Below are positions 8,948-53,754 of a DNA stretch of 64,000 bases, piece by piece (position 1 is the stretch's first letter; the number at the start of each line of letters is the position of its first letter). Position numbers and translations under genes: made by a program. Origin of the DNA: Phialocephala subalpina (taxonomy: Eukaryota > Ascomycota > Leotiomycetes > Helotiales > Mollisiaceae); assembly GCA_900073065.1 (NCBI GenBank), contig FJOG01000002.1, positions 148,700 to 212,699 of the forward strand. Direction: 5' to 3'. The notes under the pieces are model-generated. The model was not told the origin of the DNA. It saw only the letters and a list, made by a program, of their open reading frames with translations, and ran no database searches.

Positions 8948-10333
8948 TCAAGTTTTCCCCGCCCTAGCCTTGATAGTGTTCATCAATTTCTCATACGCAG
9001 CAGTATCTTCATCCAACGACTCAATCATCCGATTCTTACCCACACCCTGCCAACCCTGAGGCTCAAACCTCCCATTCTCCATCTCCTGTATCATCTCATC
9101 CAGCTCCACCCAAGGTGATGGTCCCGTCCCCTTATCAAATCCTTTATATCTCTCCAAAGCTCCTTCTACACCCATCGCGTTCCATTTCCCGTAATCGAAG
9201 TTCCGTCCCTCATCCCAATTTCCGTTTCCGAATTTGAATACCTTTAGGTTTGGCAATTGTTGTTCAATTTTTGAGAAGTATTCGGACCAGCTTCGAGGAT
9301 ATTCCCAGAAATGCGCGTTGTCGTAACTGCCTCCAATCGGCTCCAGTGGGTAGTTCTCATTATCGAGAGGCCCATAGCCGTATATGTAGTTAGTGATAAC
9401 AGCGTCGTCAAGGACCAGCTCCTCGAGAGTGTCGTGAGAGAGGATCCAGTCTAGCTGCCAGTCGTGGGTGAAGGCATAATTGCCTAGTTCTAGCTTTTTC
9501 AGTTTTGGGAAATGCAAGGACCGGAAGTCGCACAGAGGCATATACCCCCAGTATAAATCCGCGTGAAGGGTGAGACTTGTCAAATTATTTTGCGTAGGCT
9601 TGAGCCATAGGTCGGGGAACTCGTGGAAGAAGGTATACATCTGAGGAATGTCCCAACTACTTTCCGGACTCGAGGTCTCATATTCGGTGACGATTTTCAA
9701 TCTGAGCTCAGTGAGGCGTTCCAGGACGGGTTTGAAACTGGGAGAGGTGATGAGGCGGCGGTCGTTGTAGTTTTGGAGATGCTTCAGGGATAGTGATCGG
9801 AGCTTGGGTGTCTCGTTCAAGGCAGAGAATAGTGTTCGTAGGACATCGTATCTGAACTCGGCAGATTCTTCAGCCTTCATTTTCCACCAGTCGTCGGGAT
9901 CATCGTCCAACATGCAGACGCAGGCGAACTCGACAGCTACATCTCGGAGGTTGGGAAACTTGCTGATGGACCGGATGACTTCTTCGAATCCTTCGGTGAG
10001 GATCGATTCTTCCTCGTCGTTGTTGTAGTCTTGCTTGTCCTTGTTGGGGTCGTTTGACGTCGTGATCTTGATGCTGGTGACTTCCGAGGAGAGTTGAGAA
10101 GATGAGAGGATAGAATTGAAGTTCTTGTAGAAGTCTTCGGACTTTGTATTCTCGTCTGAGTCGTCTCCAACATCTCCAAGGGAATCCGGCTCCGGAGTCA
10201 CGTGGATATGAGAGAAAATTTGACGAGTCGCTGGCGCGTAGAAAGCTTTGCACGATTGGCGAAGATTCATGAGCTCTGGAAGCTCACAGAAATGGACGAT
10301 GTTCGTCACTAATTCTGTTGATAGAGACTCCAT
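8948..10333 (-). CDS. F-box protein with leucine-rich C-terminal region
   Basis: Single exon. I place the start at the ATG at 10333 (MESLSTELVTNIVHFCELPE), giving 461 residues; the frame is open 41 codons further upstream but those precede the F-box and look untranslated. Residues 1-45 are an F-box (L-P/S-E-L-x2-I.. CKAFYAPATRQIF). The rest has spaced leucine motifs (LRSLSLKHLQ, LTSLTLHADLY, LKKLELGNY, LEELVLDDA) like the irregular LRRs of fungal F-box proteins. By family knowledge it would be a substrate receptor of an SCF ubiquitin ligase through Skp1. A 10-residue acidic stretch follows the F-box. Target unknown. Confidence 0.8.
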   Translation of the reverse strand: MESLSTELVTNIVHFCELPELMNLRQSCKAFYAPATRQIFSHIHVTPEPDSLGDVGDDSDENTKSEDFYKNFNSILSSSQLSSEVTSIKITTSNDPNKDKQDYNNDEEESILTEGFEEVIRSISKFPNLRDVAVEFACVCMLDDDPDDWWKMKAEESAEFRYDVLRTLFSALNETPKLRSLSLKHLQNYNDRRLITSPSFKPVLERLTELRLKIVTEYETSSPESSWDIPQMYTFFHEFPDLWLKPTQNNLTSLTLHADLYWGYMPLCDFRSLHFPKLKKLELGNYAFTHDWQLDWILSHDTLEELVLDDAVITNYIYGYGPLDNENYPLEPIGGSYDNAHFWEYPRSWSEYFSKIEQQLPNLKVFKFGNGNWDEGRNFDYGKWNAMGVEGALERYKGFDKGTGPSPWVELDEMIQEMENGRFEPQGWQGVGKNRMIESLDEDTAAYEKLMNTIKARAGKT

Positions 10334-11413
10334 GGTATCGTTGCCCCTGAGTTGATGGTCTAGGCCAAGGCTTCTGGAAAGTTGAGGAGATGCGAAGTAT
10401 GCGTGGAGATTGACAATCGGAGCAACACGAAACCGGATTCGATTGATGGGAATCATAAATGATGAAGCGTGTGCGTCTTTCTGACTTCAGAGTCTTGCAC
10501 AAATGGTGCATGAAGAATTGATGCGACGTCGTTGAAATATCACGTGCTGCTACGCCACAGCCGTGCTGCCGTCTGGTGGCTTGGCAAAACATCTTCAAGC
10601 CACCGGATTTCGACGCCCGCTCTTCCAACATTGATCTCGAGCTCGACCTTCGAATGCTGCACAATTCCTCAACTTTGAGGTCCAACCCTTTTCTTGAGAA
10701 GAGATGCAAATCTTCAATCTATACCTGAGGCGAGCCTCGGAACAACATGAGCCCAACACCCTGAATGAGTTTTCTATCACTGCATATGGTCCCTCCAACA
10801 TGCAGCCCGTTATGTCTCGGCCCCTCCCCACTGTGCGTTGTCTCGACAACTGTTCTCGAATGATAGGATAGGCGCCCGGAAGATGAATGAATTGGCATAT
10901 CATTCTTCAGTCTGAAGCACGATATATGCGTTGTACTGCAGTCATGTGGTGCCCAATCCCACCTCTCGCGAGTCGCGGCGACAAAACCTCTCAGGACTGG
11001 TTCACAGACTCATTTGTCAATTCGACCCAAACCGCATTCACGAATGGCTGCTGAACGAGGTTCTACCTTGTGGTTGACAGCGGTGGGGGTGTTCGGCAGC
11101 ATGAACCACTGGGGATGTGAAAAGTTCCTAATGGGGCAGTTCTTGACGCCCTTGTGGGACATTTTGCAGGACAGGCAGCGGAAAAACAATCGGCCCGCAC
11201 AGCTACCCTGGACGACCAACCCCCACAGGCAAGCAAACGCCTCTCACCGACTCCTCCGCGAGATGAGGTGACTCCAAAAGTGAGACTGACAATTAGACAT
11301 TTGCACATCATTCACAACGCACATCTTTTTATGTGCATGAGTCTAAACATGGGTTAGTATGTATCGTAGGAATTTCTCAAGCTTTTCCTCTTGTTCTCAT
11401 TAATCCCGCGCGG
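10334..11413. other. intergenic between divergent genes
   Basis: About 1.1 kb. It contains TCACGTG-type sites near 10539 but no frame with convincing coding character on either strand. It presumably holds promoters of the F-box gene and of the repeat protein gene. Confidence 0.5.
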
Positions 11414-14400
11414 ATGTCTTCTCTTGTTACCATATTGTACCTTTTCGTTGTACCATTACTCACTGGCATCGTTCTGATGTCTACACCCAAGATCATCCAC
11501 CGTCTGAGAGACGTTCTCTCAAGCAGACATGACAAACGCGCGAAAGGCATTGCTGCCCCGGGAAGTTCCCCATCAGAAGAGGAGGTAGAGCAGACACAGG
11601 ATCGGGACGAGCTACAGAAATCGATAGCAGATGCAGTATCTGCTGCCCTCAATACCGACGAGTTCACGAAAGCAGTTGCCGGACGTCTGGCTATCCAGCT
11701 AGAGCCATCCTTCAAAGCGGCGTTTGACATATCGACCATCGAATCCGCTCTTCGAGCCACGAACGAAGAACTCACTCAACGAATTAACCAGAGCAATAGC
11801 CAGACATCCTCGAAGCTCTCCGACCTATCAGACCTTGTCGATACGAATAATACGCAGACGACTGGGAAAATCACTTCTATTGAAGATGCGGTCGCCAAGA
11901 TTACGGACTCGTTGGTGGAGCTTGGAAATAATATCAAGGCAGTGCAGGAGCAGGTTGCGGCCCCGGATACCAGTCTGTTGGCAGCACATGGAGAGAAGCT
12001 GGACACTATATCATCTGGCTTGCAGATATTACACGAGCGACCACTCCCAGTACCTGTCGACTTCACGTCTCAAGACGCCAAGCTTGCTGCTCTGTCTGCA
12101 GAACTTGGCTCTTTGAAGACCGATATCGAAGCTGGAACTACCGCTGGCTTTGCAGGTTTGAGTGTCCAGGTCGGAGCTGTCCTCACTGCCATCGAGAGTC
12201 ACCAGGCTATTCTTTCAGAAATCAAGGCTTCTGATTCAAGCGCCGAAATCCTCACTCAAGTCAAAGCAGCAAATGAATCACACACATCTCATGCCGCCGC
12301 TCTTGAGGATATCAAGAGCAAGGACATCAGCTCAGAGATCTTGGCAAATGTCAAGACTCTTTACGAATCTCATGCCAACCAGGCTGCTGTATTGGAAGAT
12401 ATCAAGGCGAGCAACATCTCACCAGAGATCCTCGCTGAGGTCAAGGCTTTGAACGAATCTCATGCATCACACACCGCTGCTCTTGCTGAGATCAAGGGTG
12501 CCAACTTGCACCCTGAGATCTTGGAAACAGTCAAGGCCTCAAACGCAACCCTCGCAGCACACTCAACATCACTCGATGGCCTCAAGGAGATCGTTTCCGC
12601 ACCTGCTCCCGTGCCAGAAAAGACCGACCTTACTGGATTGGAGACCTCTGTACGCGATATCCATTCTACGTTAGAAAGTCACACTGGCCACTTGACCGAG
12701 ATCAAGACTGCTACTACTACACCAGCTCCAGTTCCAGAGAAGGTAGACTTATCCTCAATAGAGGCGACTATCCAAACTCTCGCCGCTACAATCGCCGAAG
12801 TCAAGGCTGCTGTCGAGGCAAATGCACCAATCGCTACAGACCTCAGTGGTCTTGAGAGTTCGGTCGAGAAGGTCCACAGCACACTTGAAGGGCACAGTGG
12901 CACTCTTGGTGAGATCAAGACCCTCGCTGCCGTTGTTCCACCAGCCAGCGAGAAGACTGATTTGTCTGGCCTTGAGGCTTCAGTGGAGAAGTTGACAGCT
13001 GTGGTAGCTGAGATCAAGACCACCGTCGAGACTCCAGCACCAGTTGTCGAGGCAAAGGAAGTTGATCTCTCGCCTTTGGTATCAACACTTGGTGCCCACA
13101 CTGCTCATCTGGAAGCAATCAAGTCAGCAGTTTCAGCACCAGTCCCTGAAGCTAAGGAAGTTGACTTATCGCCCCTGGTCTCGAAGCTTGATGCCCATAC
13201 CGCGCACTTAGAAGGCATCAAATCAGCAGTCTCAGTACCAGCCCCTGTTCCGGAGAAGACTGACATCTCAGGTCTTGAGGCTTCCGTGGCTCTTCTTGCA
13301 GCATCTGTTGCCGAGATCAAGACATCGATCGACAGGGAGGATCCAGCTCCCAAGGAGGTTGATCTATCGCCTTTAGTGTCAACTCTCGACTCCCACACTA
13401 CTCACCTAACCGAGCTTAAGGGACTTGTCAGTGCTCCTCCTGCTGTACCAGCCAGCGAGCCTGTGGACCTTGCACCAATTGTGTCGCACTTGGAAGATAT
13501 CAAGTCCAGTCTTGATATCAAGTCCACTCTTGTTAGCTCAGCTCTAGCTCTAGCTACCGACCTCACACCTATTGTCTCTACTCTCGAGGGACACTCTGCA
13601 CACTTGTCGGCAATCAAGGACATTGTTTCCACACCTGCTGCGGCTCCAGCACCTGTAGACTTAACGCCTATCACATCTACCTTGGAAGCTCACACAGAGC
13701 ATCTCACAAAGCTGAAGGAGATCGTTTCGACACCTGCACCAGTCACAGCTGCAGAACCCATCGACTTTACTCCAATCACCTCTCACCTCGAGGCCCATAC
13801 AGGGCACCTTGAAGCCATCAAGGGTCTTGTCTCTACTCCTGCTGCGGTACCTCAACCAACAGACTTGGCTCCGATTGCGTCTCAGCTCGATGCCATCAAG
13901 GAGATTGTTTCGAAGCCTGTCCCAGCCGCTGAACCTGTTGACTTCGCACCAGTCGTATCACACCTCGAAGCTCATGGTCAGCAGCTTGCTGCTATCAAGG
14001 AAACCTTCTCTACACCTGTTGCTGCATCAGAACCAGTTGACTTGGCACCGATTGTTGCTCATCTGACCGACATCAAGGATACCCTCGCTGCCCCAACCCC
14101 AGCTCCTACTCCAGTCGACCTTGCACCCTTGGTATCAACTCTCGATGCTCACACTGCACACCTCGCCGACATCAAGAGCACTCTTGCTGTTCCAGCACCT
14201 GTCTCCGAGACAGTTGACCTATCTCCATTGATTTCAACCCTCGAGGCTCACAGTGCCAAGTTGGATGGCTTAAAGGACATCGTCTCTGCTCCTGCGGCAG
14301 CTCCAGAGCCCGTTGATTTGACACCATTGACCTCGACTCTCGAGGCTCACACTGCTCACTTGACCGACATCAAGAGCACTCTTGCAGTCCCAGCTCCTGT

Positions 14401-15748
14401 CGTTGAGCCTGTAGACTTCACACCTCTCTCTACCCAACTTTCAGAGATCAAGGAGATCGTGTCGAAGCCAGCAGTAGCATCAGAGCCAATTGACTTCACC
14501 CCCATCACCTCCACACTTGAAGCTCACAGCACCCATTTCTCTGACATCAAGGCCTCTTTGGCTACACCAGCACCGGTCGCCGAGCCCGTTGACCTGTCTG
14601 CCATAACCTCTACTCTTGCATCCCACTCTGAGTACTTGAGCGCCATCAAGGACATCGTCGCAACCCCAGCCGCCGCTGCTGAGCCTGTCGACTTGGCTCC
14701 CATCACCGCGGACTTGACTGAAATCAAGGGTTTGGTTGCCACACCAGCTCCTGTTGCCGAGAAGACCGACATTTCTGGCCTGGAGGCATGTCTTGCCGCT
14801 ATTGGAGCCACTCAAACCATCCACGGTGAGCATCTCACTGCGATCAAGGAGAAGGTCTTAGCTCCTGTTCCTGTCGCCGAGCCCACCGACCTGTCTGGTC
14901 TTGAGGGGTCAATCAAGGAGGTCTCGACTTCGCTCAATGCCCACAAGGTCACACTTGACGAGCATTCCGGTCACTTGACTGCCATTAAAGACATCGTTGC
15001 CACTCCAGCAGCTGTTCCAGCCCCAGTCGATCTCTCAGGTCTTGAAGGCCACCTCACAGACGTCAAGAGCACTCTCGAATCCCACAAGGCATCCCTTGAT
15101 GAGCATTCCGGCCATCTCACCAGCATCAAGGAAGTTGTGTCCACGCCTGCTCCAGTGACTGATCTCTCCGGCATCGAGAAGCACGTCCTCGAGGTCAAGA
15201 CTCTCGTCGAGGGTCTACCCACCCCAATCGCTCCCACCGCCGTAAAGGATGAAGAGATCCTAACCGAACTCGCCAACGTTAAGACTTTGATCTCAGCTCT
15301 CCCAGCACCAGCTGAAGTAAAGGATGTCAAAGACGAAGAGATCCTTTCCGAGTTAAGCGGAATCAAGACCCTCGTCGAAGCCATCCCCGCCAAAGTCGAC
15401 ATCAAAGACGAGGAACTGCTCTCCGCTATCAAGACCCTCAAATCTTCCGTCGAATCTCTCCCTGCCCCGGCCACTCCAATTGCCGTCAAAGACGAAGAGA
15501 TCCTCTCTGAACTGAGCTCCGTCAAGACTTTGGTTTCTGCTTTGCCAAAAGAGATCCCCGCTGCACCGGTATACAAGGACGCCGAGATCCTGAGCGCCGT
15601 TCATGCTGTCAAGATAATAGTTGAGCATTCCATTGCGAAGATGAATGGTAATGTTGAGGAGGTCGGGGAGAATGATAAGGGTGTTGAGGTTAAGAATGGG
15701 AGTAATGGTGTGAAGATCGCTGAGGCTGAGGTTGAGCCTGAGTCGTAG
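11414..15748 (+). CDS. membrane-anchored coiled-coil repeat protein
   Basis: Single-exon gene; the ATG at 11414 gives 1444 residues and starts directly with a hydrophobic anchor (MSSLVTILYLFVVPLLTG). The frame is open 27 codons upstream to another ATG at 11333, which would bury the anchor, so I prefer 11414. After a basic then acidic segment come coiled-coil heptads (to about residue 420), then about 25 degenerate repeats of the type VDLxPLVSTLEAHTxHLxxIKxxx followed by a Pro/Ala linker. The C-terminus has four KDEEIL(S/T)EL..VKTL units and an acidic tail. No catalytic motif is visible. The layout suggests a long rod anchored in a membrane, perhaps a tether or spacer; this is inference. I do not recognise the family. 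Confidence 0.8.
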   Translation: MSSLVTILYLFVVPLLTGIVLMSTPKIIHRLRDVLSSRHDKRAKGIAAPGSSPSEEEVEQTQDRDELQKSIADAVSAALNTDEFTKAVAGRLAIQLEPSFKAAFDISTIESALRATNEELTQRINQSNSQTSSKLSDLSDLVDTNNTQTTGKITSIEDAVAKITDSLVELGNNIKAVQEQVAAPDTSLLAAHGEKLDTISSGLQILHERPLPVPVDFTSQDAKLAALSAELGSLKTDIEAGTTAGFAGLSVQVGAVLTAIESHQAILSEIKASDSSAEILTQVKAANESHTSHAAALEDIKSKDISSEILANVKTLYESHANQAAVLEDIKASNISPEILAEVKALNESHASHTAALAEIKGANLHPEILETVKASNATLAAHSTSLDGLKEIVSAPAPVPEKTDLTGLETSVRDIHSTLESHTGHLTEIKTATTTPAPVPEKVDLSSIEATIQTLAATIAEVKAAVEANAPIATDLSGLESSVEKVHSTLEGHSGTLGEIKTLAAVVPPASEKTDLSGLEASVEKLTAVVAEIKTTVETPAPVVEAKEVDLSPLVSTLGAHTAHLEAIKSAVSAPVPEAKEVDLSPLVSKLDAHTAHLEGIKSAVSVPAPVPEKTDISGLEASVALLAASVAEIKTSIDREDPAPKEVDLSPLVSTLDSHTTHLTELKGLVSAPPAVPASEPVDLAPIVSHLEDIKSSLDIKSTLVSSALALATDLTPIVSTLEGHSAHLSAIKDIVSTPAAAPAPVDLTPITSTLEAHTEHLTKLKEIVSTPAPVTAAEPIDFTPITSHLEAHTGHLEAIKGLVSTPAAVPQPTDLAPIASQLDAIKEIVSKPVPAAEPVDFAPVVSHLEAHGQQLAAIKETFSTPVAASEPVDLAPIVAHLTDIKDTLAAPTPAPTPVDLAPLVSTLDAHTAHLADIKSTLAVPAPVSETVDLSPLISTLEAHSAKLDGLKDIVSAPAAAPEPVDLTPLTSTLEAHTAHLTDIKSTLAVPAPVVEPVDFTPLSTQLSEIKEIVSKPAVASEPIDFTPITSTLEAHSTHFSDIKASLATPAPVAEPVDLSAITSTLASHSEYLSAIKDIVATPAAAAEPVDLAPITADLTEIKGLVATPAPVAEKTDISGLEACLAAIGATQTIHGEHLTAIKEKVLAPVPVAEPTDLSGLEGSIKEVSTSLNAHKVTLDEHSGHLTAIKDIVATPAAVPAPVDLSGLEGHLTDVKSTLESHKASLDEHSGHLTSIKEVVSTPAPVTDLSGIEKHVLEVKTLVEGLPTPIAPTAVKDEEILTELANVKTLISALPAPAEVKDVKDEEILSELSGIKTLVEAIPAKVDIKDEELLSAIKTLKSSVESLPAPATPIAVKDEEILSELSSVKTLVSALPKEIPAAPVYKDAEILSAVHAVKIIVEHSIAKMNGNVEEVGENDKGVEVKNGSNGVKIAEAEVEPES
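12600..15180 (+). repeat. in-gene tandem repeat array, units of 26/33/40/47 codons
   Basis: Within the repeat protein, successive units begin with VDL, TDL, IDF or similar and end in a Pro/Ala-rich linker. Counted unit lengths are mostly 33 codons, but several are exactly 26, one is 40 and one 47, that is 33 minus or plus multiples of seven. The 26-residue units lack the STLEAHT heptad. Nucleotide copies are diverged, so this is an old array rather than a minisatellite. Confidence 0.75.
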
Positions 15749-21805: not shown

Positions 21806-22045
21806 TGTGAGTAGTTGTGATGCGGTTCTAATCTATTCAATGTAAGAAATTCTTCACAGATTCGCGGCGTTGTGATTGTCAGTGAGAAGAGGGGGACAAT
21901 TCGTGGAAGACGCGATCTCACGCGTTGGTGGACAAGGATGTTGCGGGAGACCAGGGTTCGGCGCTGTATTCGCCGACAGCTCCAAAAAATTCAAGACTCT
22001 CTTCGATATGAGAATGAGCAGCAGAAACATCAAGCAGTCGCATAC

Positions 22046-24546
22046 ATGATTACTCGGAAGCCTTGGGGTCAGCATATATGTCTGCGGTGCCAGCGAAACC
22101 TAGCAAAGCGCTCTTCGCACCTACAATCTCCAGCTCTGTCCCAGACATTCCCAGAACGACGGCGGTACTCACAGCAAGTTGTTCGCAAAGTCTACGATGA
22201 CAAGGAAAGCAATGGCAATGTAGCAGACGTTGATAGGGTAGATGGTAAGAAGTACGAGCCGGCAAGTCTGCAGCCTCAGGGGCGACTGCGTGGGCATCGA
22301 GGTCAATTCAAGCGTGAAGATTTGGAGGAACTGAGAGGTGCAACTACACTTGGAGACAAAGCGAAAGTTATTGTGCTTCGAGACTCCATACTCAGCAAAT
22401 ACACCCTCCAAGAATTCAAAGCGAAGAAAATAAAGCCGAAACATATCAATATCCTTGGACAACTAGCAGAAGAAAGGGGCTTGGTAGGAGAAGATGAAGT
22501 GACGGACAATATCAATGCTTTCCGGCCAAAAGAAGGAGAATACCCTCAAGATCTTCATGGAATCACAGACCTTGTCAACGAAATTGTAGAGAGTTTTACT
22601 ACTCCACAATTAGAGAACTACATCAAGAACTTCGAGGGCAGGCGGCAGCAGGAGAAGTCAGACAATGTATGGAAGGCCAACGACCCGAATGCTCCTATTA
22701 CTCGGATCACACCATGGCAGCCAACGGTGTCAGACATTGAGGATCACTTCGACAATGATCCCCTTCGAGGTTATGTCCTACAATCACATAATCCCAAGCA
22801 AAGGCTAGTTCTTCGGTTGATGCGAGAGTGCTGGATGTTTGAACTTCCTGAGCTTTCCGATGGTATTGGGCAATTTGAAGTTCGAGTCCGGAGTGATGAT
22901 CTCGACCTTCTGCTCTGTAAGTAGACCTGGCTGCATGAATGTATGTATGCTAACAGACTGTAGTTGGACACAATTCGATTCTGAATACGATACATACTAC
23001 CTACCTGCCCAACGCAGAAGAAAGACTCGAAGTATTCCGGTCACGAAATACCATCCGTGTTACAACCACACATGCCAAGAAGTACGCCATTGTCGATGCC
23101 ATTCAGCAAGCAGTAGACAGCATTAAGAGAGGGACTTTTAATTTGAATGGGTTAATACCTCGCGGCGCCGACAGTAAGAAGCTCGAAGAGTTCATGGAAA
23201 CACATTTCGACGACGCAGCATTGGCGAGGTTGTCTGAAATCACTAACACAAAGATTGTCAGAACGGATCCAAGGCATCTGTCAGTATCGTGCACCGAACA
23301 TAATCCAGATGCATCAAGCTCTCGACTTGACGCAGTCCGTCGACTACTCTTGACTTCCGACAACTTCTCGAGCAGATTGGAGCACGAGCTTGCTATCAAG
23401 CAGAAGAAGTCAACGGAGGGTGCTTTGGTAGACTATGCCTTGACCGGAGGTCTATCATGGAGACAGCAAATGCGAGACTGGAAGAGGTTCGCCGCTCCAA
23501 TATCAAAAGAAGATCCCTACATTGCAAAGGCCCCAGTCGAGCAAGAGAAGTCTATCGAACCCGATTTATCCTCACTCCCCAGCACCCAAACCTCAACCAA
23601 CGAACACCCTCCCAAAATCTGGGAACCACTTATCGACGCCGAAAAAAGCGAAAGCACCCTCCACTGGAGCACCCGCCTCTTCACCGAAACCTCCGCCCTA
23701 ATGGGAACAGTCCTCCATTCCACAACCCCCTACCACACCCCCCTAACACCAAAATCCACACCCCTCAACACTCTCGGCCTCCTCCACACCTTCAACACAA
23801 AAGTCCCTAACCTCTCCCGCGTCCTCTCTAAAGCCGACGCAAAAAAGAACAGTCGCCCAACCAAGCGCCTCGTCCTACGCTTCGCCCCCGACCCTTTCTT
23901 CCCTATCCTTAAATCCATTCGAAAAGTAAAATACCCCAGCTCCAAGAAAGAGGTTCCCATCGGTGTCGAAGCTCTATCCGCCTTTCCCAGTATAGAAATG
24001 ATATTCGACATCGATCCTCGAACTAAGGAACCCAAGTTGTATACCGTGAACGCCGTTATCCAAGAAAAGAAAACAGATGTCATGGTGCCTGAAAACGCGG
24101 TCGATGTGCGTTTCCAACAAAAGATCACTAGCCGCCTATCTCGGAAATTCCTCAAGCCGATAAAATCTTTCCTCTTCCGTAGTCAGCTATCCCTCGCTGC
24201 AAAAGGGAAATTAGATACACCACCTTCCATCATTTTACCTATATCGAAACACCTCTGTCGAGATGAAGGCTTCAAGATACTTGGACTCAAAGGTGAGGTG
24301 GGGGATGAGCAAGAAATTCGGTATTTGTTCACCGGTCTAGAGATCCATTCCACTTTGGTGTTTAATTGGAAATCTTTCCGTGTACTATACACTTCTATCG
24401 AAGCCGGTAAAGCCATAGGTCGACGTTCAGAACTCAAGATTCGACCGATCAAAAATGGGCAGGTGGCTACAGAAGCAGATTTCGTGAAGGCGGCCTATAG
24501 ATTGGCGGATATGCTTGGTGATGGGACGGGGGAATTTGCTGATTGA
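22046..24546 (+). CDS. SLS1: mitochondrial inner-membrane-bound regulator Sls1
   Basis: Two exons, 22046-22916 and 22964-24546 (47-bp intron with GCTAAC branch point), 817 residues. I choose the ATG at 22046 because it yields a basic mitochondrial presequence (MITRKPWGQHICLRCQRNLA, then RRYS); the open frame extends upstream to other possible starts. The core (WQPTVSDIEDHF, GHNSILNTIHTTYLPNAEER, KKYAIVDAIQQAVDSI, DPRHLSVSC) follows the fungal Sls1 pattern with KH-like segments. Sls1 couples mitochondrial transcription, mRNA delivery and translation at the inner membrane. A 250-bp perfect tandem duplication at the 3' end replaces the last 13 residues with a stop after GEFAD; the frame through the second copy would end DDRLREMVYDSRRT. 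Confidence 0.88.
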
Positions 24547-26671: not shown

Positions 26672-28589
26672 TTACTTCTTGGCACCAGCCTTGACAGCGG
26701 CCTTGGTGACCTTGCCAGCCTTGTCGGACTTCTCAACGGACTTGATAACTCCAACTGCCACGGTCTAAGGGGATACAGGTTAGCATAGATCGATGAACAG
26801 CAGGATTGATGATTAGGGAGGGGTTGGGGGAGTGGAGAAGTGGAGAACGGAGGAGGGGAGAGTACTAACTTGTCTCATATCGCGAACGGCGAAACGTCCA
26901 AGGGGAGGGTAGTCAGTGAAGGCCTCAACGCACATAGGCTTGGATGGAATCATCTTGACGATGGCAGCATCACCAGACTTGATGAACTTGGGGGCTGCTT
27001 CAATGGACTTTCCGGTACGACGATCAATCTTCTCCAAGAGCTCACCGAACTTGCAAGCAATGTGAGCAGTGTGGCAATCCAAGACTGGTGCGTAACCGGC
27101 ACCGACTTGACCAGGGTGGTTGAGAACGATGACTTGAGCGTTGAAGGACTCAGCGGCCTTAGGAGGATCGTTCTTAGAGTCACCAGCAACGTTACCACGA
27201 CGGATTTCCTTGACGGAGACGTTCTTGACGTTGAAGCCAACGTTGTCTCCTGGGAGACCCTCAACAAGTTGCTCGTGGTGCATCTCGACGGACTTGACTT
27301 CAGTGGTGACACCAGCGGGGGCGAAGGTGACGACCATACCGGCCTTGATGATACCGGTCTCGACACGACCGACGGGAACCGTGCCAATACCACCGATCTT
27401 GTAGACATCTTGAAGAGGAAGACGGAGGGGCTTGTCAGTTGGGCGGGAAGGAGGGTCGATGGCATCGATAGCCTCGAGAAGGGTCTTTCCGGAGGACTTG
27501 CCAGCCTTGGTCTCCTTCTCCCAACCCTTGTACCATGGGCAGTTGGGGGAGTTGTCGATCATGTTGTCACCGTTGAATCCGGAGATGGGGACGAAGGCGA
27601 CGGTCTTTGGGTTGTATCCAACCTTCTTGATGAAGTTGGAGGTCTCCTTGATGATTTCCTGGTAACGAGCCTCGGACCACTTGGTGGTGTCCATCTTGTT
27701 GATGGCGACGATGAGTTGCTTGACACCAAGGGTGTAGGCGAGGAGGGCGTGCTCACGAGTCTGGCCATCCTTGGAGATACCAGCCTCGAACTCACCAGTA
27801 CCGGCAGCAATGATGAGAATAGCGCAATCGGCCTGGGAAGTACCAGTGATCATGTTCTTGATGAAATCACGGTGACCGGGAGCATCTGCGAGGTGTTAGC
27901 AGGGAAGATGATGCGACGCATCTGCGAAGACATACCAATGACGGTGACATAGTACTTTGGGGTCTCGAACTTCCAGAGAGCGATATCGATGGTGATACCA
28001 CGCTCACGCTCGGCCTTTAGCTTGTCAAGAACCCATGCGTACTTGAAAGAACCCTTGCCCAACTCGGCGGCTTCCTATCGAAAGGGTCAGCAATGTTATC
28101 GAAGACATTGTGTGTTATGCAAAAGTATGGGTGTTGTGAAAGGGTATGTGCGTTGGGCATCAATCATGATGTTGTCGTGACGATGGCACGGGCGCAAAAA
28201 TTTGTTGTGCGAGGCGAAGGATTTTACCCCACCGAGGGGCAAAAATTGCGATAAGGAAAAATGTGCGCGACAAGGCAACGAGATGATTCTTACCTTCTCG
28301 AACTTCTCGATGGTACGTTTGTCAATTCCACCGCACTTGTAGATCAAGTGACCTGTTATGATTGTGAGCTCGATGTGCGGACGTGTTGTCGAGGGTTGGA
28401 GGAGGCTTACCAGTGGTGGTAGACTTGCCGGAATCGACGTGGCCGATAACGACCACGTTGATGTGCATCTTTTCCTTACTGCAGAGCGATGGCAGGTTAG
28501 CAAAGAGTCCATTAAGATCGATCTTGGCATCGTATCGATGTCGCAGATCGAGTGAGGATGGAAAAAGTTGGATGGAATGCTTACCCCAT
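26672..28589 (-). CDS. TEF1: translation elongation factor 1-alpha
   Basis: Six coding exons on the minus strand: 28585-28589, 28411-28478, 28294-28352, 27936-28074, 26870-27885, 26672-26764, totalling 1380 nt, 459 residues, the family's normal length. The first coding exon is only five bases (ATGGG). GTPase motifs are present: GHVDSGKST (14-22), [12 protein letters not shown]. The protein ends [10 protein letters not shown]. It delivers aminoacyl-tRNA to the ribosome as the GTP-bound form. Codon use is strongly biased to C/G-ending codons, as expected of a highly expressed gene. A further intron in the leader (28659-28714) is likely. This is one of the surest calls in the window and is the standard phylogenetic marker for placing the organism. 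Confidence 0.98.
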
Positions 28590-33604: not shown

Positions 33605-36600
33605 ATGCCGAACGTCTTCAGCCGCATCTTCGGAAAGAAGAGGAATAAGAAGACCGAGGACGAGGACGGGGGTGAGGGCGATGCTAGAGAGGCTCTTGAG
33701 ACGTCAGCTAGCGATGGCATTGGGCCGCTGAGTGTCCGTGACGACTGCGAAGGGGACGCTAGCGGAATTGATCTTATCTTTGTCCACGGGCTCCGCGGCT
33801 CTCGGTTAAAGACTTGGTCGAGTGGGGACGTCTTCTGGCCCCGAGACTTTCTCAAAGATGATGTGAAGAATGCTAGAGTCATCACTTGGGGCTACGATGC
33901 CAGCGTGGCCAATGCCTTCGCTTATGCTAGCAAGGAGAGTATCTTCGGCCATGCAGATACCCTGCTTAATGACCTGGCGAGGCTGCGGAAACGAATTGTA
34001 TGCCTTCTTCTATCCATGTTGGAAAGTATAGAGCTAACGGATGTCTACAGACTAGACCTATTGTTTTTATCTGTCACAGCCTTGGAGGCCTGGTTGTGAA
34101 AGCCGCTTTGATCGAGTCAGCCGCTTATAACAGTCACAAAAGACACCCTACTCTTGGCGAAATATACGCTAGCACCATTGGCGTGATATTTCTCGGGACG
34201 CCGCACCGTGGAAGCAGCAAGGAGAATCTAGGAGAAGTGGTAGCAAATGTTGCCAAGCTTTCCTTTCGTCAACCAAACAAACAGCTCCTCGCGACGTTGA
34301 AAACAGATTCTCATATCCTCGAGAACCAGCGAGACCAATTCACGACAATTTCAAGCAACTTGAGCATTGTATGTATTAGGGAGGAGCTCCCAACAGGGGC
34401 AGGTTTAGTATGGCTGCTAAATGATTTGGTTGAAAGTTTGTGCTAAGAATCGATTATAGATTGTGAAAGAAGCCTCCGCCTCCTACGATGGCTTCAATGT
34501 CCGCCGCGATGCCATTAATGCGAATCACATGAATATGGTAAAGTTCCCATCGAAGGGGAATGAAGGATATAAAAGGACTCTCGGCCACGTCGATGACATT
34601 CGCAATGTCCAACGACCAGAAATCCAACAAGGTATGTCACACAATAGGCTTTCCTTGATCTACTGTAAATGACAGAATCCAAGTCCCGGAGCCTGCACCT
34701 TCCCAAGGCAACACGACCGTCTAGGTTACGAGAGTAGGCTTGTGGTTCTGTGCAGCCGTGGCTGCCTGGCAATGCATTGTTGTCATGAAAAGATCATGTA
34801 TTAGAAGATTTCTGAGAATGGGGTTCCAGAATGGGAAATTATTGTCGTGGGCCACTGTCAATTCTCGTGCTTCTTTATATCCACCCAAATGCAGACTAAC
34901 TATTGTGTAAGAGAATGAAAAAATCGAGTCTCGAAATAATGGTAAGTTCGTAAATTCAATCTAGGTCATTTGAACTGTCTCTGAGAGTTTACAGATATAC
35001 TAAAAGCCCTGGAGTTTTCAAAAATACACGATCGAGAGCTAAACATCGATAACGCGTATGCCGATACCTGCTCCTGGATACTGGACCACCAATCTACGAA
35101 CAACAAGGCATCAGCCAAGCCATCCCAGTTCTTATCTTGGCTCAAAAACAACGAAACTTTTTTCTGGATTAGTGGCAAAGCCGGTTGTGGCAAGTCAACT
35201 CTCATGAAGTATGTGTACCAGAACCGCAAAACCAGAGAGGACCTCTCTCAGTGGGCAGATGGAAAGGATTTGGTGCTAACAGGATACTTCTTCTTCGATC
35301 GCGGGGACAAAGATCAGAGTTCGAGAGAAGGAATGCTCAGAAGTATTCTGCATCAGGTACTAAGCACTCGGCGAGACCTAATACCTAAGGTCTTCAGCCA
35401 GTTCTTTGGGAACACGCTGCCACTACAGCAATTCATGGCCTGGACCAACCTAAGCGGTGCATTAATATCGATGTTGGATCATCTTCGAGATTCTAAGATA
35501 TGTCTTTTCTTGGACGGCCTAGACGAATACCGCATGATCGATAGAATCGATGAATACACCGAGGAAGAAATGGACCTGATTTATGATGGCACCAACGAAG
35601 ATGATGCCTGGGGTCAAAGCATTTGGATCACGGATGGGCACAGGGAGATTGCGCGATTTCTTCGCCAATTCAAGAACTGCGACAATATAAAGGTTTGCAT
35701 TTCCAGCAGGGAGTTAGTCGTGTTCGAACAGGAATTCCGGACTTTCCCCAGACTCCAGGTGCACGAACATACCGCGGAGTCCATCGCGCATTATTGTGAT
35801 AATCGTCTGACAGACGAGGCTCCAGGCCTCATCCATCGCTCGGATTTCGTGTCTTTGATCACCGAGAAGGCGCGTGGGGTATTCCTCTGGGTCCGCCTCG
35901 TCGTCGACATGCTGGTTAATGGATATAACGATGGTAATTTCAAAGAGGAGCTGTTGAAGATCCTCGATAATCTTCCTCCCAGGCTTGGTGGAAAAGATGG
36001 TCTTTATATGCGCATGATGCGAAACATCAAGCGGGAGTATCTGCCTGAATCGAAAAGACTATTTCAACTTGTTATGCGATGGGGTGAACATGAGGCTCTG
36101 GGTTCTCTTGATATTATAACTCTATTCTTGGCGGAACCTGGGCACCTTGAAGCAGACAGCGAGCAGGAGTTGAGGGCTCGAAACGACAAAGTTCTCCTTA
36201 AAAGTTGGGGCGAATGGCGGCCTCGATGGACGGATCTGGAACGTCGTCTCAAAAGTCGATGCGGTGGACTTCTCGAAGGGATAGAGAACGTGCAGTTCAT
36301 GCACCAAACCGCTAAGGAGTTCATGTCCAGAAACTACTTGTGGGATAAAATATTCCACAACACTGCTGGCTTTGGCGGATCGGACTTGAACCTGGCCATG
36401 TTGAGTGGATTGGTTCGACGCCTGAAATGCTGCGGAGAAGCCGCTTTCAAATCAAACGGCCTACAAAGTCAACGAGAACAAGATCCCGCGGTTTTGAGCT
36501 ACCCTTTCAAAAATCTTGAAATTCCTACCCGCGGCTTCGAGCTACTGGAATGTGCGCTATGTCACGCCAATTCACTGGAATCGTGCGACCGTTTCGATCA

Positions 36601-37342
36601 GTACGTAGCGCTCCTCGATGAATTAGATGGCGCAGGCGATCAACTAACCAGGGACTGGAAAGATGGGCTGGCAGAGTCTTTTAGACGATCCTCCGTCGCA
36701 AATGCAAGCTGGGTTGAATTCTTTATTGCGCTAGACCTTGGTGGATCTTCAAAATGGCCAAACCTTGCTAGCTTGAAGCCCAAGAGCTTCTTAGAACTCG
36801 CGATTACACGAAACCTCTTTCCTTACGTAGAAGTGAAGATTAGATGCAAGGATATTCCTCGACCTCAGCTACAGTCTTTACTTCTACGAGCGACACGGCG
36901 CGTATTGTTGGAGTGGAAGGATCAGGGCTATTTGTATGCGGCATATAACAGTCCAGAAATTTCCGAGATGCTATTTCAAAAAGGTGCTGACCCAAACTGC
37001 CGAGACGCGGATTCGAATACAGTCATGCCGTTGGAGGAAGGTTTGACTGCATGGACCGGTCTACTCCAGGATAGACTCCACGTAGGTAGTTTCGGTGACG
37101 CATGGGTGGAGCGCTGGATCCTTACAGTGAAAGTTTTCCTCAAGTATGGAGCCGATCCGACTGTACGTTGGTATAGTCCGCATGGCATGGAGAATGGACG
37201 AGCAATGGAAATTAACACGCCGGATACCATCATTCAGGCGGTCTCGGCTCGCCAACCGCAATGCCAGAAGGGCTTCGCCGACATCATGGAGCTATTGAGT
37301 GAGGCAAAGGCCAACCTAGGGCCCATCAGAGGAGGAGGATAG
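33605..37342 (+). CDS. NLR-like protein: SesB-type alpha/beta hydrolase, NACHT, ankyrin-like end
   Basis: Four exons (33605-33997, 34051-34407, 34460-34631, 34995-37342), 3270 nt, 1089 residues. Residues about 55-300 are a serine-hydrolase domain (DLIFVHGLRGS, nucleophile Ser141 in CHSLGG, FLGTPHRGS, NANHMNMVKF with the likely catalytic His), the SesB type found at the N-terminus of fungal NLRs. A NACHT-type NTPase follows: Walker A GKAGCGKST at 368-376, Walker B LFLDGLDEY near 478, CISSREL, and the MHQTAKEF motif near 743. The C-terminus has two ankyrin-like pieces (LFQKGADPNC, LKYGADPTV). By family knowledge these proteins act in non-self recognition and regulated cell death, with the hydrolase as effector. 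The third intron, 363 bp, is far longer than all others in the window. Both enzymatic motifs are intact. Confidence 0.85.
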
Positions 37343-43792: not shown

Positions 43793-46414
43793 CTACACCA
43801 AACAAATTTCATCCATCTGTGAATTGGAAGAAACGCCCTCCCGCTCCAAAAGCCCATGCACGTAAGTGTGTCCTATAACACGATACCTCGTCTCACCAAC
43901 TCTTCTTAAAACAAAAGGCATTCTCTCGCCCGCAAACATCCAGATCTGGTCTCCCTGTTGAATGGACTGTGGCCCTAGGCTAAGACGCCAATCATTCGTA
44001 ACGAACAGCCTTCTAGAATGGAGTCTCAACCCTAATGCTGCCTGAAACTTCCGAATTCGCTCCATCACGCTCCGTTTCATACCATCAGCTGGTGGTCTTT
44101 CCAGCACACCCAATGTCGATTCCACCCTTTCGGGGCTCGGAAATGCGCCATTTGGGTTCATCATCCACAGATCCATTATTTTCTGCTTCGTCAACTGAAA
44201 TAGGTCTTCACGACCTTGTTTGCCGAAATATCCCTTAGCATAATCTATCCCAGCTTTGAGAAGTAAACCAGATTCATGGGAAGCCAATCCACCAGCCCCG
44301 CGAAGTATTTCGTCTCGGGGCATAGAGGTAGTGGATGTTACGTCTTCTAGTGCTGCTAGCTCTGAGGAAACACAATCGGATACAGCCGTTTTGTAGCCAG
44401 AGAAGAAATCTGCCGAGCCGCGGATTAGCGATATGGATTGGATCATCCAGTCGCCAAATTCGAACATGGGAAGGGACGGTGCAGGGCTGTTGTTGGATAG
44501 TGGCGTTGAAAGGATTGTGAGTATGGTGTGTATGAACATTTCATCGATTGAGAGACGAGGTGTTGTGGAAGTAGAGATTGACTTGAGAAGGTTGAAGACG
44601 CCGATCCAATTATGCGAATCTCGAATGTCGTTAAACGAGGAAGATTTTCCCTCAATCGTGTTCAATTTGATTCCGCGAACGTGGAGGACATTGCCGGAAG
44701 GATCAAAGGAGAAACTGCGTCCAGTGCTGTGCATCTGTCCTGCTTTTGAGTCTTCCTGCGTATGGTGATCTAAATAGTCCAGAGGTTCTGGCAGGAGACG
44801 CGATGTAGGATCTGGTACCCATGACGGCAGATTCTTGTTGACACGATGAACTGGATCTTCAACTAAGACTAACAGCTGTAAGCTCTTAGTAACATCCAAG
44901 TATAACTTGGAGAACTCTAACGTCACCGCCTCATGAGATTTGTTGTAGTCGACTCTAGGCAGCTCTGCTGCATTGGTCGGTAGGCGCTCCCTGACAAGGC
45001 CCAGCAACGCATAGAATTTGTCTCGAGGATCAGTTGCGCCGAAATTCCTTCCGATCATCAATAGGTCCTGCCAAGGAGTACGATGATCCTTCGTGCGAGC
45101 TTTGACTTCAACCAGAGCGGATAGTTCTGATGAGAATTCGATAGATTTCCCTAACTTCTCCGAGTCAAATCGTTCCTCTTTGAAAATACTAGCAGAAGAG
45201 CGATCGGGATGATCGGCAAGGAAGATCCAAGGCTTTGTTGCAGCCAGGAACTTAGAAAGACGAACCATCTCCAACCAAGAGATATCCTCGGAGCCACAGA
45301 ATAAGATGAAGTTGTTCGTGAGGACCACTTCTTGTACTATCCAAGCTCGGTTGAAATATGGACGAGAGACCAAAGAGCTCAGATGTTGCCAATGTGAAAT
45401 AGAAATTTCCAAAACTGCCGGGTGGATGCCGTGAACCCTTTTGAGATACTGGTCATCTGGTATTGCTGCGAGTTTCCTGACCATCGGAATTGCATCCCTG
45501 GTGTATGCGTCTCCGACCCCAAGCCACCCTATCACTCTTTCAGCGGACTTATACAATCGTCCCATCATCTGTATCTGAGTGCTTCGCTCGTCGTTGTTTT
45601 TTTGGTTGACGCAGATCTGGTCGATCCAAATGTCGCTCATCGGTTGTGTACGCTGACGAATGCGAAGCTCTTTGAGAGCTTGGAAAAGGTTGCTGGTGAC
45701 ATAAAGAAGTTGGTCATTACAGATGACTGGAAAATCTCTTTCCCCTAAGCTAGAAATGTACGTTTGACGCAGTTGGGGGCGATAATCAGCCCAAACATAG
45801 GAGAGAGCGTTGAAAGTAGGGTTGTCCTTGAGATCGACAACACGAAGAGTGAGTTTGACGAACTCCGGGTCGTTGATGCTGGTGTCAAGACGTAGAACCC
45901 TGATAGAAGTCTGCGAAGGCAAGTCTTGGTAGTAGAATGGAGAGATTTCTGCAAGAATTGCTCGGGCTGTCGAAGTGGTTCGGTTTCTCAGGTGATTCAT
46001 CGCCGCTAAAACCATCCTCCTGGCAGTTTTGGAAACATAGGATTTCTCTGCCTCGAGGCCCGGCAGGGGCGCCATACCCCAAACACCCAGCATCCCCTCT
46101 AACAATCCGTTTGGAATCTTCCTGGCCATTTCGATCTTGCTATCGAGTTGCGCTGGAGTGAGCTGAGATGTAGTAGGAGCATCTTGTGGTACAACTTCTC
46201 TACTCGATCCTCCCCGGCCATACATAGGTGTACTGTCTTTCCACGCTTCCAAGTTTTGATTCTCGGGATCTTCTTCAGGAGGATCTTCCAATATCCCCTT
46301 TGCTACCTTTGACTCTCGGGAGGGTGCTGGACCTTGAAATCTTGTGTCGCAGAACTCCATCTCCAGAGCAACTTTAAGCGCCTCCAAAGAAGGGCTTTCA
46401 GGATCAGAAGCCAT
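43793..46414 (-). CDS. heterokaryon incompatibility (HET) domain protein
   Basis: Single exon, 873 residues, starting MASDPESPSLEALKVALE. A long N-terminal region of about 165 residues precedes the HET domain at about 204-350 (FNALSYVW, LRIRQRTQPMSDIWIDQICVNQKNNDERSTQIQMM split here: IWIDQICVNQ, then YKSAERVIGWLG). The end carries the conserved tail of long HET proteins (RRLFVT, LGPQSIQQGDQ, VLRR, YRVIGHTYVHGLLEGE-like). HET domains trigger cell death on contact with a genetically different strain and are thought to work as signalling or NAD-acting TIR-like modules. The partner or recognised ligand is unknown. The frame has no stops, so the gene looks intact. Confidence 0.9.
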   Translation of the reverse strand: MASDPESPSLEALKVALEMEFCDTRFQGPAPSRESKVAKGILEDPPEEDPENQNLEAWKDSTPMYGRGGSSREVVPQDAPTTSQLTPAQLDSKIEMARKIPNGLLEGMLGVWGMAPLPGLEAEKSYVSKTARRMVLAAMNHLRNRTTSTARAILAEISPFYYQDLPSQTSIRVLRLDTSINDPEFVKLTLRVVDLKDNPTFNALSYVWADYRPQLRQTYISSLGERDFPVICNDQLLYVTSNLFQALKELRIRQRTQPMSDIWIDQICVNQKNNDERSTQIQMMGRLYKSAERVIGWLGVGDAYTRDAIPMVRKLAAIPDDQYLKRVHGIHPAVLEISISHWQHLSSLVSRPYFNRAWIVQEVVLTNNFILFCGSEDISWLEMVRLSKFLAATKPWIFLADHPDRSSASIFKEERFDSEKLGKSIEFSSELSALVEVKARTKDHRTPWQDLLMIGRNFGATDPRDKFYALLGLVRERLPTNAAELPRVDYNKSHEAVTLEFSKLYLDVTKSLQLLVLVEDPVHRVNKNLPSWVPDPTSRLLPEPLDYLDHHTQEDSKAGQMHSTGRSFSFDPSGNVLHVRGIKLNTIEGKSSSFNDIRDSHNWIGVFNLLKSISTSTTPRLSIDEMFIHTILTILSTPLSNNSPAPSLPMFEFGDWMIQSISLIRGSADFFSGYKTAVSDCVSSELAALEDVTSTTSMPRDEILRGAGGLASHESGLLLKAGIDYAKGYFGKQGREDLFQLTKQKIMDLWMMNPNGAFPSPERVESTLGVLERPPADGMKRSVMERIRKFQAALGLRLHSRRLFVTNDWRLSLGPQSIQQGDQIWMFAGERMPFVLRRVGETRYRVIGHTYVHGLLEREGVSSNSQMDEICLV

Positions 46415-52994: not shown

Positions 52995-53754
52995 AGTTAC
53001 AACCCGAAAGGCGAAAAGGCGGCGTCGGAATGTTCGTGTCGTCACAAAAGAGCTTTATCAGGTGAAGTAGACCACTAGAGCAATCTTGGAGTCGCTTCGA
53101 CTGAAAATTGACGATTGTGTAGTCTAAAGATGTCAGTCAGGGAAAAAATTTGAGGTTGAAATGGCAGAGCCTCGCGATGCGCTGGCAAACCAATGCACAC
53201 AGCCAGCCGCCAATCACAAAACGCCACAATCTAGGCAACATGAAAAGAACATTCTGGCCCCTCATGTTTTTTGTTGAGAAAAGCTTGTGCGGTAACGTAC
53301 ACCGTATTCCGTACTCATCGCGCAAATCTAGCCGACAGTATAGTCCTTAGGATTTGACACACTCACTGGCGGAGTACTAATAGAGGCAAGTCGGAAATGA
53401 GAGCTTCAGAAGCCGAGATGGGACTGGCGTGTTCAAATGGGTTCGGCTCGTTGCAGGAGCTTCCTGCAGCGCGAGCCTTGGTGCCTAGGCCCTCAGGCAC
53501 CCAATACTGCACCCCAAGCAGTCTTGAATGGAGGGCCAAAAAAAAAACAAGCTTCTTCGATAAGAAGTAGCATGCCCCGTTTTCCCATTGAATCAACCTT
53601 AATTCCTTCATGAGTTCAAAAAATCGAAAACGCCGACGCTACACAGCTTTTTATCTGCATTTCACAAGACCGCGTTGAAGATATAACCTTTGCACTATTT
53701 CCGACCATGTTTTTCAGACGCCATGCTGCGTGTCCGAATTACCCTAGGTCATAG
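52995..53754. other. intergenic
   Basis: Promoter side of the HET-ankyrin gene, then unassigned DNA with a ten-A run near 53538. The truncated membrane protein begins at the right end. Confidence 0.45.

Follow-up and report, generated by a model that had tools for sequence, protein, structure and literature searches.

A repeat protein of Phialocephala subalpina with predicted helices that vary by whole heptads and histidine at core positions

The neck of DC-SIGNR (CLEC4M) forms a tetrameric stalk in which prolines link short helical bundles (PMC2971551). The Leashin (LAH) proteins of fungi are acidic tethers that combine proline-bearing repeats with a membrane segment; according to PMC2690989 and PMC5345055, the predicted Lah proteins have 5,936-10,821 amino acids (aa), the Neurospora one having proved to be two genes, the membrane segment lies in the C-terminal part, and the repeats are of another sequence than those reported here. 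We analysed a stretch of 64,000 nucleotides (nt) of Phialocephala subalpina (contig FJOG01000002.1, positions 148,700 to 212,699; hereafter the window), in which one long open reading frame (ORF) encodes a rod-like repeat protein (Table 1). Each unit of its main array consists of a predicted helix of 2, 3, 4 or 5 heptads followed by a linker, mostly proline-bearing and of 13 residues. Like the DC-SIGNR neck, the rod would be a membrane-anchored series of short heptad helices that break at a repeat proline and project a distal part. The neck differs by its 23-residue repeats and by belonging to an extracellular receptor with a lectin domain, and a core histidine is not mentioned in the accessible text (PMC2971551). 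The short heptad helices with proline breaks that mark the DC-SIGN/DC-SIGNR necks are present in the window protein as predictions, and no C-type lectin domain was found among its Pfam matches. Hence, our best reading is that this protein may work like the DC-SIGNR neck, by analogy, without belonging to that family.

A preliminary description of the protein had counted units of 26, 33, 40 and 47 residues. We defined the start of a unit by the pattern D[LFI][TSA][PGSA][LIV] and let its helix end with the last [ILVF]K ahead of the next proline. Between successive start anchors, the 25 intervals measured 33 residues in eleven cases, 26 in four, 40 and 35 in three each, 31 in two, and 47 and 44 in one each. 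The proposed lengths thus fit 19 of the 25 units, which equal 33 or differ from it by a multiple of seven, but the 31s, the 35s and the 44 had been missed, and only one 40 had been seen where there are three. The offset from the start of the helix to [IL]K was 17 in 15 units, 10 in five, 24 in three, 31 in two and 16 in one, i.e., 3 modulo 7 in 25 of the 26 helices. The linkers (from K to the next unit start) had 13 residues in 19 of 25 cases, changed by 1-3 residues where they changed, and carried proline in every unit except the one at residue 685. Where helices departed from their modal length, they did so by a multiple of seven in 10 of 11 cases; of the six linkers that departed from theirs, none did (one-sided Fisher p = 0.0006, treating the units as independent, which is not fully true of them); for the three distinct non-modal heptad lengths alone, the probability by chance is 1/343. 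Whole-heptad steps hold for the helices and not for the whole units, and by this count the expected clustering of lengths likewise stands for the former and fails in part for the latter. The linker is an internal control within one gene that does not follow the heptad rule. The coiled-coil register, earlier thought to be kept along the rod, is therefore kept within helices but is not continuous, being interrupted by a linker at each unit. The exceptional unit at residue 685 contains an 18-nt tandem duplication; if helices were ended at the first [ILVF]K instead, this unit would fit (offset 10) and the 47-residue unit would not (offset 7).

Core positions of coiled coils are normally hydrophobic. 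We set the core register by taking the isoleucine of [IL]K as d. Almost every heptad then has leucine or a different large hydrophobic residue at a (a single Gln stands in unit 1119, the exceptional unit 685 aside), and d holds isoleucine, leucine or valine, with histidine at one d in most of the longer helices. Read backwards from K, the five short helices have I/V-I/L at their d positions, 12 of the 15 standard helices I/L-H-L/I/V, the three longer ones I-H-I/V-L and the two longest I-H-H-V-L. The number of histidines at d is therefore zero in helices of two heptads (5/5), one in those of three (12/15) and four (3/3), and two in those of five (2/2). The heptad absent from short helices is the one with Leu at a and His at d; the listing of units and cores bears out the earlier remark that short units lack a heptad of the STLEAHT type.

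The protein had been left without a family, but we found at least 63 distinct relatives in sequence searches giving 29, 9 and 52 rows. The 9 rows came from residues 1-300 (E-values 1.2e-11 to 2.5e-30; this stretch also includes some coil) and the 52 from residues 1-115 of the relative P0024, itself counted. These searches reach only proteins of similar length that share exact words, with the best 7992 candidates scored in two of them, so that members outside Leotiomycetes may have escaped them. The organisms of six relatives were checked and are Leotiomycetes, as we presume from their names for the others; named examples are P0024 (Amylocarpus), P0004 (Cadophora) and P0017 (Sclerotinia nivalis). 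The nearest relative, P0001, is 37% identical over the best local alignment, which covers 35% of the query. It is absent among the matches listed for residues 1-300 and for P0024 1-115, showing that the candidate limits lose members and that the branch of the window protein and P0001 is divergent. Literature searches, including by locus tag, found no paper on this family among the open-licence PMC papers listed (8 of 896 in one search).

The window protein shares with the family the N-terminal domain, the LxxIK anchor, the histidine at d seven residues before it, and the heptad spacing. Alignment with relatives places the conserved N-terminal helical domain in the window protein, with F84, L92, A93, P98, K101 and A103-D105 nearly invariant in the family. 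Its units at residues 270-390 resemble the SNESHASHTAALxEIK repeats of relatives, and P0017 carries DLSPITSMLEAHTATLEEIK, close to the units of the main array. A pattern check of the window protein found neither a GGAAGAG-type segment nor a lysine-rich C-terminal tail, which occur in 39 and 40 of the 63 relatives, respectively (31 have both and 15, some of them partial, have neither). As these two features are not universal among relatives, the window protein is a divergent member of the family rather than a non-member. By the pattern for unit starts, it has 26 start motifs, against 0-12 in relatives. In relatives such as P0004, P0024 and P0030, a segment of the AIGALALGGAAGAGAGALA type recurs after the repeats, together with the lysine-rich tail. 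P0031 has consecutive 21-residue (three-heptad) units without proline at residues about 590-700, perhaps a continuous-coil version of the repeat.

The core histidine is kept across the family, at the position where the LxxIK anchors of the window protein have it. Histidine stands seven residues before the anchor in 22 of 44 cases in the window protein and in 604 of 1273 in the 63 relatives, with a per-protein mean of 0.46 at this position against 0.017 at ten non-core positions. The excess over the non-core mean is above fivefold in all 63 relatives; since these proteins are related, the 63 cases amount to conservation and cannot be counted as independent. Ten residues before the anchor, an a position, relatives have histidine in 339 of 1273 cases. 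The window protein has it there in only 3 of 44, its second histidine being at the flanking position -4 in 17 of 44. The heptad rule also extends in part to relatives: once a single orthologous block (DLA[AS]L[KR]; 13 rows) is set aside, 22 of 36 units were in heptad phase (22 of 49 with the block), where chance gives 1 in 7. P0002 was in phase for 8 of 8 units with offsets from 17 to 45 (8 of 9 with the dropped block row). In the window protein and P0001-P0032 together, 189 of 447 anchor pairs without intervening proline were 0 modulo 7 apart, including 129 at exactly 21, whereas 27 of 268 pairs with a proline between them were.

We modelled the protein with AlphaFold2 (AF2), using the models for secondary structure only. 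Residues 1-460, with 22 sequences, were helical nearly throughout, with a mean predicted local distance difference test score (pLDDT) of 65 and a predicted template modelling score (pTM) of 0.27. Residues 902-1273, modelled alone, gave one main helix in each of 11 units, of 21, 22, 21, 14, 22, 21, 15, 28, 35, 36 and 16 residues, separated by breaks of 11-12 residues (7 for the last one; pTM 0.24). At low confidence, these helices cluster at about 14, 21, 28 and 35 residues between breaks. The helical propensity expected from the preliminary description is thus recovered unit by unit, though at a mean pLDDT of only 53, and the models suggest, with low confidence, a segmented rod and not one continuous coiled coil.

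The commonest unit length, 33 residues, could also suggest a degenerate ankyrin-like solenoid, and designed ankyrin-type chains make up most of the 17 matches in a sequence search of the PDB (best 5le2, E-value 3.6e-7). Yet, no Pfam ankyrin model matched the protein at E-values up to 1, when the true ankyrin protein of the window, serving as a positive control, matched PF00023 at 5.3e-70; the models have one main helix per unit, if with low confidence; and steps of seven residues would be meaningless in ankyrin. We rejected this reading, which is hardly credible. The Pfam matches included no enzyme domain, in line with the earlier remark that enzyme motifs are lacking. A match of the window protein to ABC_tran_CTD (35.3 for a cut-off of 32) and one of P0004 to DUF4279 (33.7 for 25) were rejected as composition matches: their best stretches are 49 and 29 residues of coil, respectively, and none passes alone. 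Matches to Baculo_PEP_C, Sos7, NPV_P10 and Apolipoprotein were all below cut-off.

We favour, somewhat above even chances, a membrane-anchored, cytosol-facing, oligomeric stalk of segmented coiled coils that serves as a spacer or tether. Short heptad helices need partners to pack, and the proline linkers make a single uninterrupted coil unlikely. In the simplest arrangement, the helices of several chains would pair in parallel and form successive short bundles, with hinges at the prolines. Gain or loss of a whole heptad would keep the a/d face, and other lengths would break the packing, hence the tolerance to heptad-sized changes. By the rule established with GCN4, a pattern of Leu at a and Ile at d points to tetramers, which on this pattern would be the oligomer here. 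Of the N-terminal anchor in the preliminary description, the hydrophobic segment is supported: residues 4-22 have a mean hydropathy of 2.56. P0001 shares the layout, with a hydrophobic segment (1.57) between MSS and MST; the segment of P0002 is weaker (1.49) and sits in a 5' extension, possibly a prediction artefact. There is no basic n-region before the segment of the window protein, but a strongly basic stretch after it. According to the positive-inside rule, a basic flank stays cytosolic, and this one would hold the rod in the cytosol, with the N-terminal domain close to the membrane and the C-terminus kept at a distance.

The same basic stretch argues against a secreted or cell-wall stalk, in which the hydrophobic segment would be a signal peptide and the S/T/P-rich linkers would be O-glycosylated at the cell surface. 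The protein is rich in A, L, S, T, E, V and P, with S, T and P making up 27%, and the KR pair at residues 41-42, which we take to be a Kex2 motif, could serve as a cleavage site. But the n-region is missing, and the lack of the segment in 61 of 63 relatives and the lysine-rich tail in 40 of 63 suggest an intracellular family. Secretion is rather improbable. The protein is also acidic (207 D+E for 100 K+R), which recalls the Leashin-type tethers of Woronin bodies. The latter differ in their very large size, their repeat sequence and the C-terminal position of their membrane segment, as set out in the accessible parts of PMC2690989 and PMC5345055 and not by a sequence comparison, whereas the window protein has 1444 aa and its segment at the N-terminus. 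A Leashin-type tether is therefore very improbable.

Several observations weigh against the anchored stalk or blur the heptad reading. In an unphased Fourier scan, the window protein has its peak at 3.34 and not at 3.5, which we attribute to the resetting of the register by linkers; the same scan of six relatives peaks at 3.50-3.52. Anchor spacing across linkers is non-heptad. The nearest relative, P0001, is in phase for only 2 of 3 units, and 14 of 36 units of relatives remain out of phase after dropping the 13 rows. Some of these 14 are variants of the dropped block, and P0017 643 is scored as out of phase only through the VK after its IK. AF2 confidence is low and the models are of single chains, oligomerisation being inferred. 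Foldseek gave 134 matches to the N-terminal model up to an E-value of 10, none of them below 0.001. The DC-SIGNR neck (3jqh) was among the PDB sequence matches (E-value 0.0016), but through residues 1226-1389, mostly of the C-terminal repeat type; the match reaches just the last part of the array and does not cover the 26 units. Finally, 61 of the 63 relatives show no N-terminal hydrophobic segment in their first 60 residues (some lack their N-terminus), and the in-frame Met22 lies where the N-termini of most relatives begin. An SRPPL-type start, e.g., MAPNSRPPLTSRIRASFEGKR, is found near the N-terminus of 54 of 63, at a place that corresponds to Met22; translation could thus bypass the anchor. 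These last points favour a soluble cytosolic scaffold translated from Met22 (MSTPKIIHR...), as in most relatives (MAPNSRPPLTSRIR...), the hydrophobic segment being untranslated or restricted to an alternative form. The layout shared with P0001 speaks against this, and an untranslated stretch would not be expected to remain open and hydrophobic. We regard the soluble scaffold as unlikely, if the likeliest of the alternatives.

The array is probably old. Among the 15 standard units, the helix parts show differences at a proportion of 0.74 of synonymous sites (pS) and 0.36 of non-synonymous sites (pN). The excess of synonymous over non-synonymous differences between units supports the ORF as a coding gene. 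As synonymous sites are near saturation, we infer an old and constrained array without recent homogenising exchange, not a fresh length polymorphism. The data thus do not support a "tunable" rod, as had been proposed, if this is taken to mean recent growth or shrinkage. Recent expansion was also rejected because Tandem Repeats Finder gave nothing beyond a 99-nt pair (76% match) and an 18-nt pair. The best DNA match of each unit to another unit is 74-84% with gaps freely placed; these alignments played no part in the heptad count. The features of the protein, which is closed by an acidic end beyond its C-terminal repeats, are collected in Table 1.

Table 1. Features of the rod-protein gene in the window (residue numbers refer to the encoded protein).
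Feature	Position	Strand	Basis
Rod-protein ORF, 1444 aa	11414..15748	+	Complete, ATG at 11414, stop ending 15748, no intron needed
N-terminal hydrophobic segment (residues 4-22), then basic stretch (residues 25-44)	11423..11479	+	Aligns with hydrophobic N-terminus of P0001
Family N-terminal helical domain (residues 64-181)	11603..11956	+	Alignment; helical in the AF2 model, with ten-residue pLDDT values of about 67-82
About four 30-residue units ESHxxHxAxLEDIK..ILxxVKxxN (residues 270-390)	12221..12583	+	Read from sequence
Segmented array, 26 helix-plus-linker units (residues 405-1268)	12626..15217	+	Unit pattern
40-residue units	12626..12745, 12839-12958, 14768-14887	+	Unit count
18-nt tandem duplication (DIKSSL DIKSTL), inside the sole unit breaking the heptad rule	13496..13532	+	Tandem-repeat search
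26-residue unit, helix without the Leu-a/His-d heptad	13862..13939	+	Unit count
26-residue unit	14039..14116	+	Unit count
26-residue unit	14414..14491	+	Unit count
26-residue unit	14690..14767	+	Unit count
47-residue unit with two His d layers	14888..15028	+	Unit count, core listing
44-residue unit, five-heptad helix like that of the 47-residue unit, linker 3 shorter	15029..15160	+	Unit count
Second, C-terminal repeat type KDEEILSELSxVKTLVxALPxP (residues 1277-1406)	15242..15631	+	Read from sequence

The window is fungal, judging by its gene content, which includes HET-domain proteins, an NPHP3_N protein, SLS1 and an EF1A-like protein. It looks rich in incompatibility-type genes: two HET genes and the NPHP3_N protein. 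One HET protein (50709-53045, minus strand) has the HET domain followed by ankyrin repeats. Its gene holds at 50718-51335 a 99-nt tandem array (6.2 copies, 80% match; alternatively a 297-nt period, 2.1 copies), more uniform than the array of the rod gene. The second (43793-46414, minus strand) has 873 aa and a Pfam E-value of 2.5e-25. The NPHP3_N protein (35204-37342, plus strand; 712 aa) also has DUF7791, and we take it to be NACHT-like. SLS1 (21872-24546, plus strand) spans two ORFs (SLS1_N, SLS1_C), probably split by an intron. An intron probably also explains why the ORF of the EF1A-like protein (26813-27853, minus strand) lacks its first part, the GTP_EFTU match beginning at profile position 86. 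A 502-aa ORF (8948-10456, minus strand) has a weak F-box match under the Pfam cut-off (17.1 for 20.5 bits).

Segmented coiled-coil stalks are already known; new here is the histidine at core d positions, and unusual is its combination with helices that vary by whole heptads beside linkers that vary otherwise. Trimeric autotransporters, which have Asn at core d positions, similarly keep a polar residue at a d layer through many heptads, and one study reportedly deals with chloride in trimeric coiled coils. They differ in that they are bacterial and extracellular and have Asn with chloride where the rod has His. A literature search on core histidine found designed metal-binding coiled coils and, among the papers listed, no natural coiled coil with a histidine core. 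The family may be a natural one built around repeated buried histidine layers, with the rod as a tether that is gated by pH or metal and becomes softer at these layers; this is doubtful at present. Two of the three steps in helix length add or remove a histidine layer (the step from the third to the fourth heptad adds none), so that changes in length would step the response of rod stability to pH or to bound Zn or Cu. A fungal family in which almost half of 1273 anchors keep a core histidine is unusual, since coiled coils normally have hydrophobic residues there. It may offer a natural source of bundles with histidine cores, and the comparison of helices with linkers of the same gene offers a test in nature of how register is conserved.

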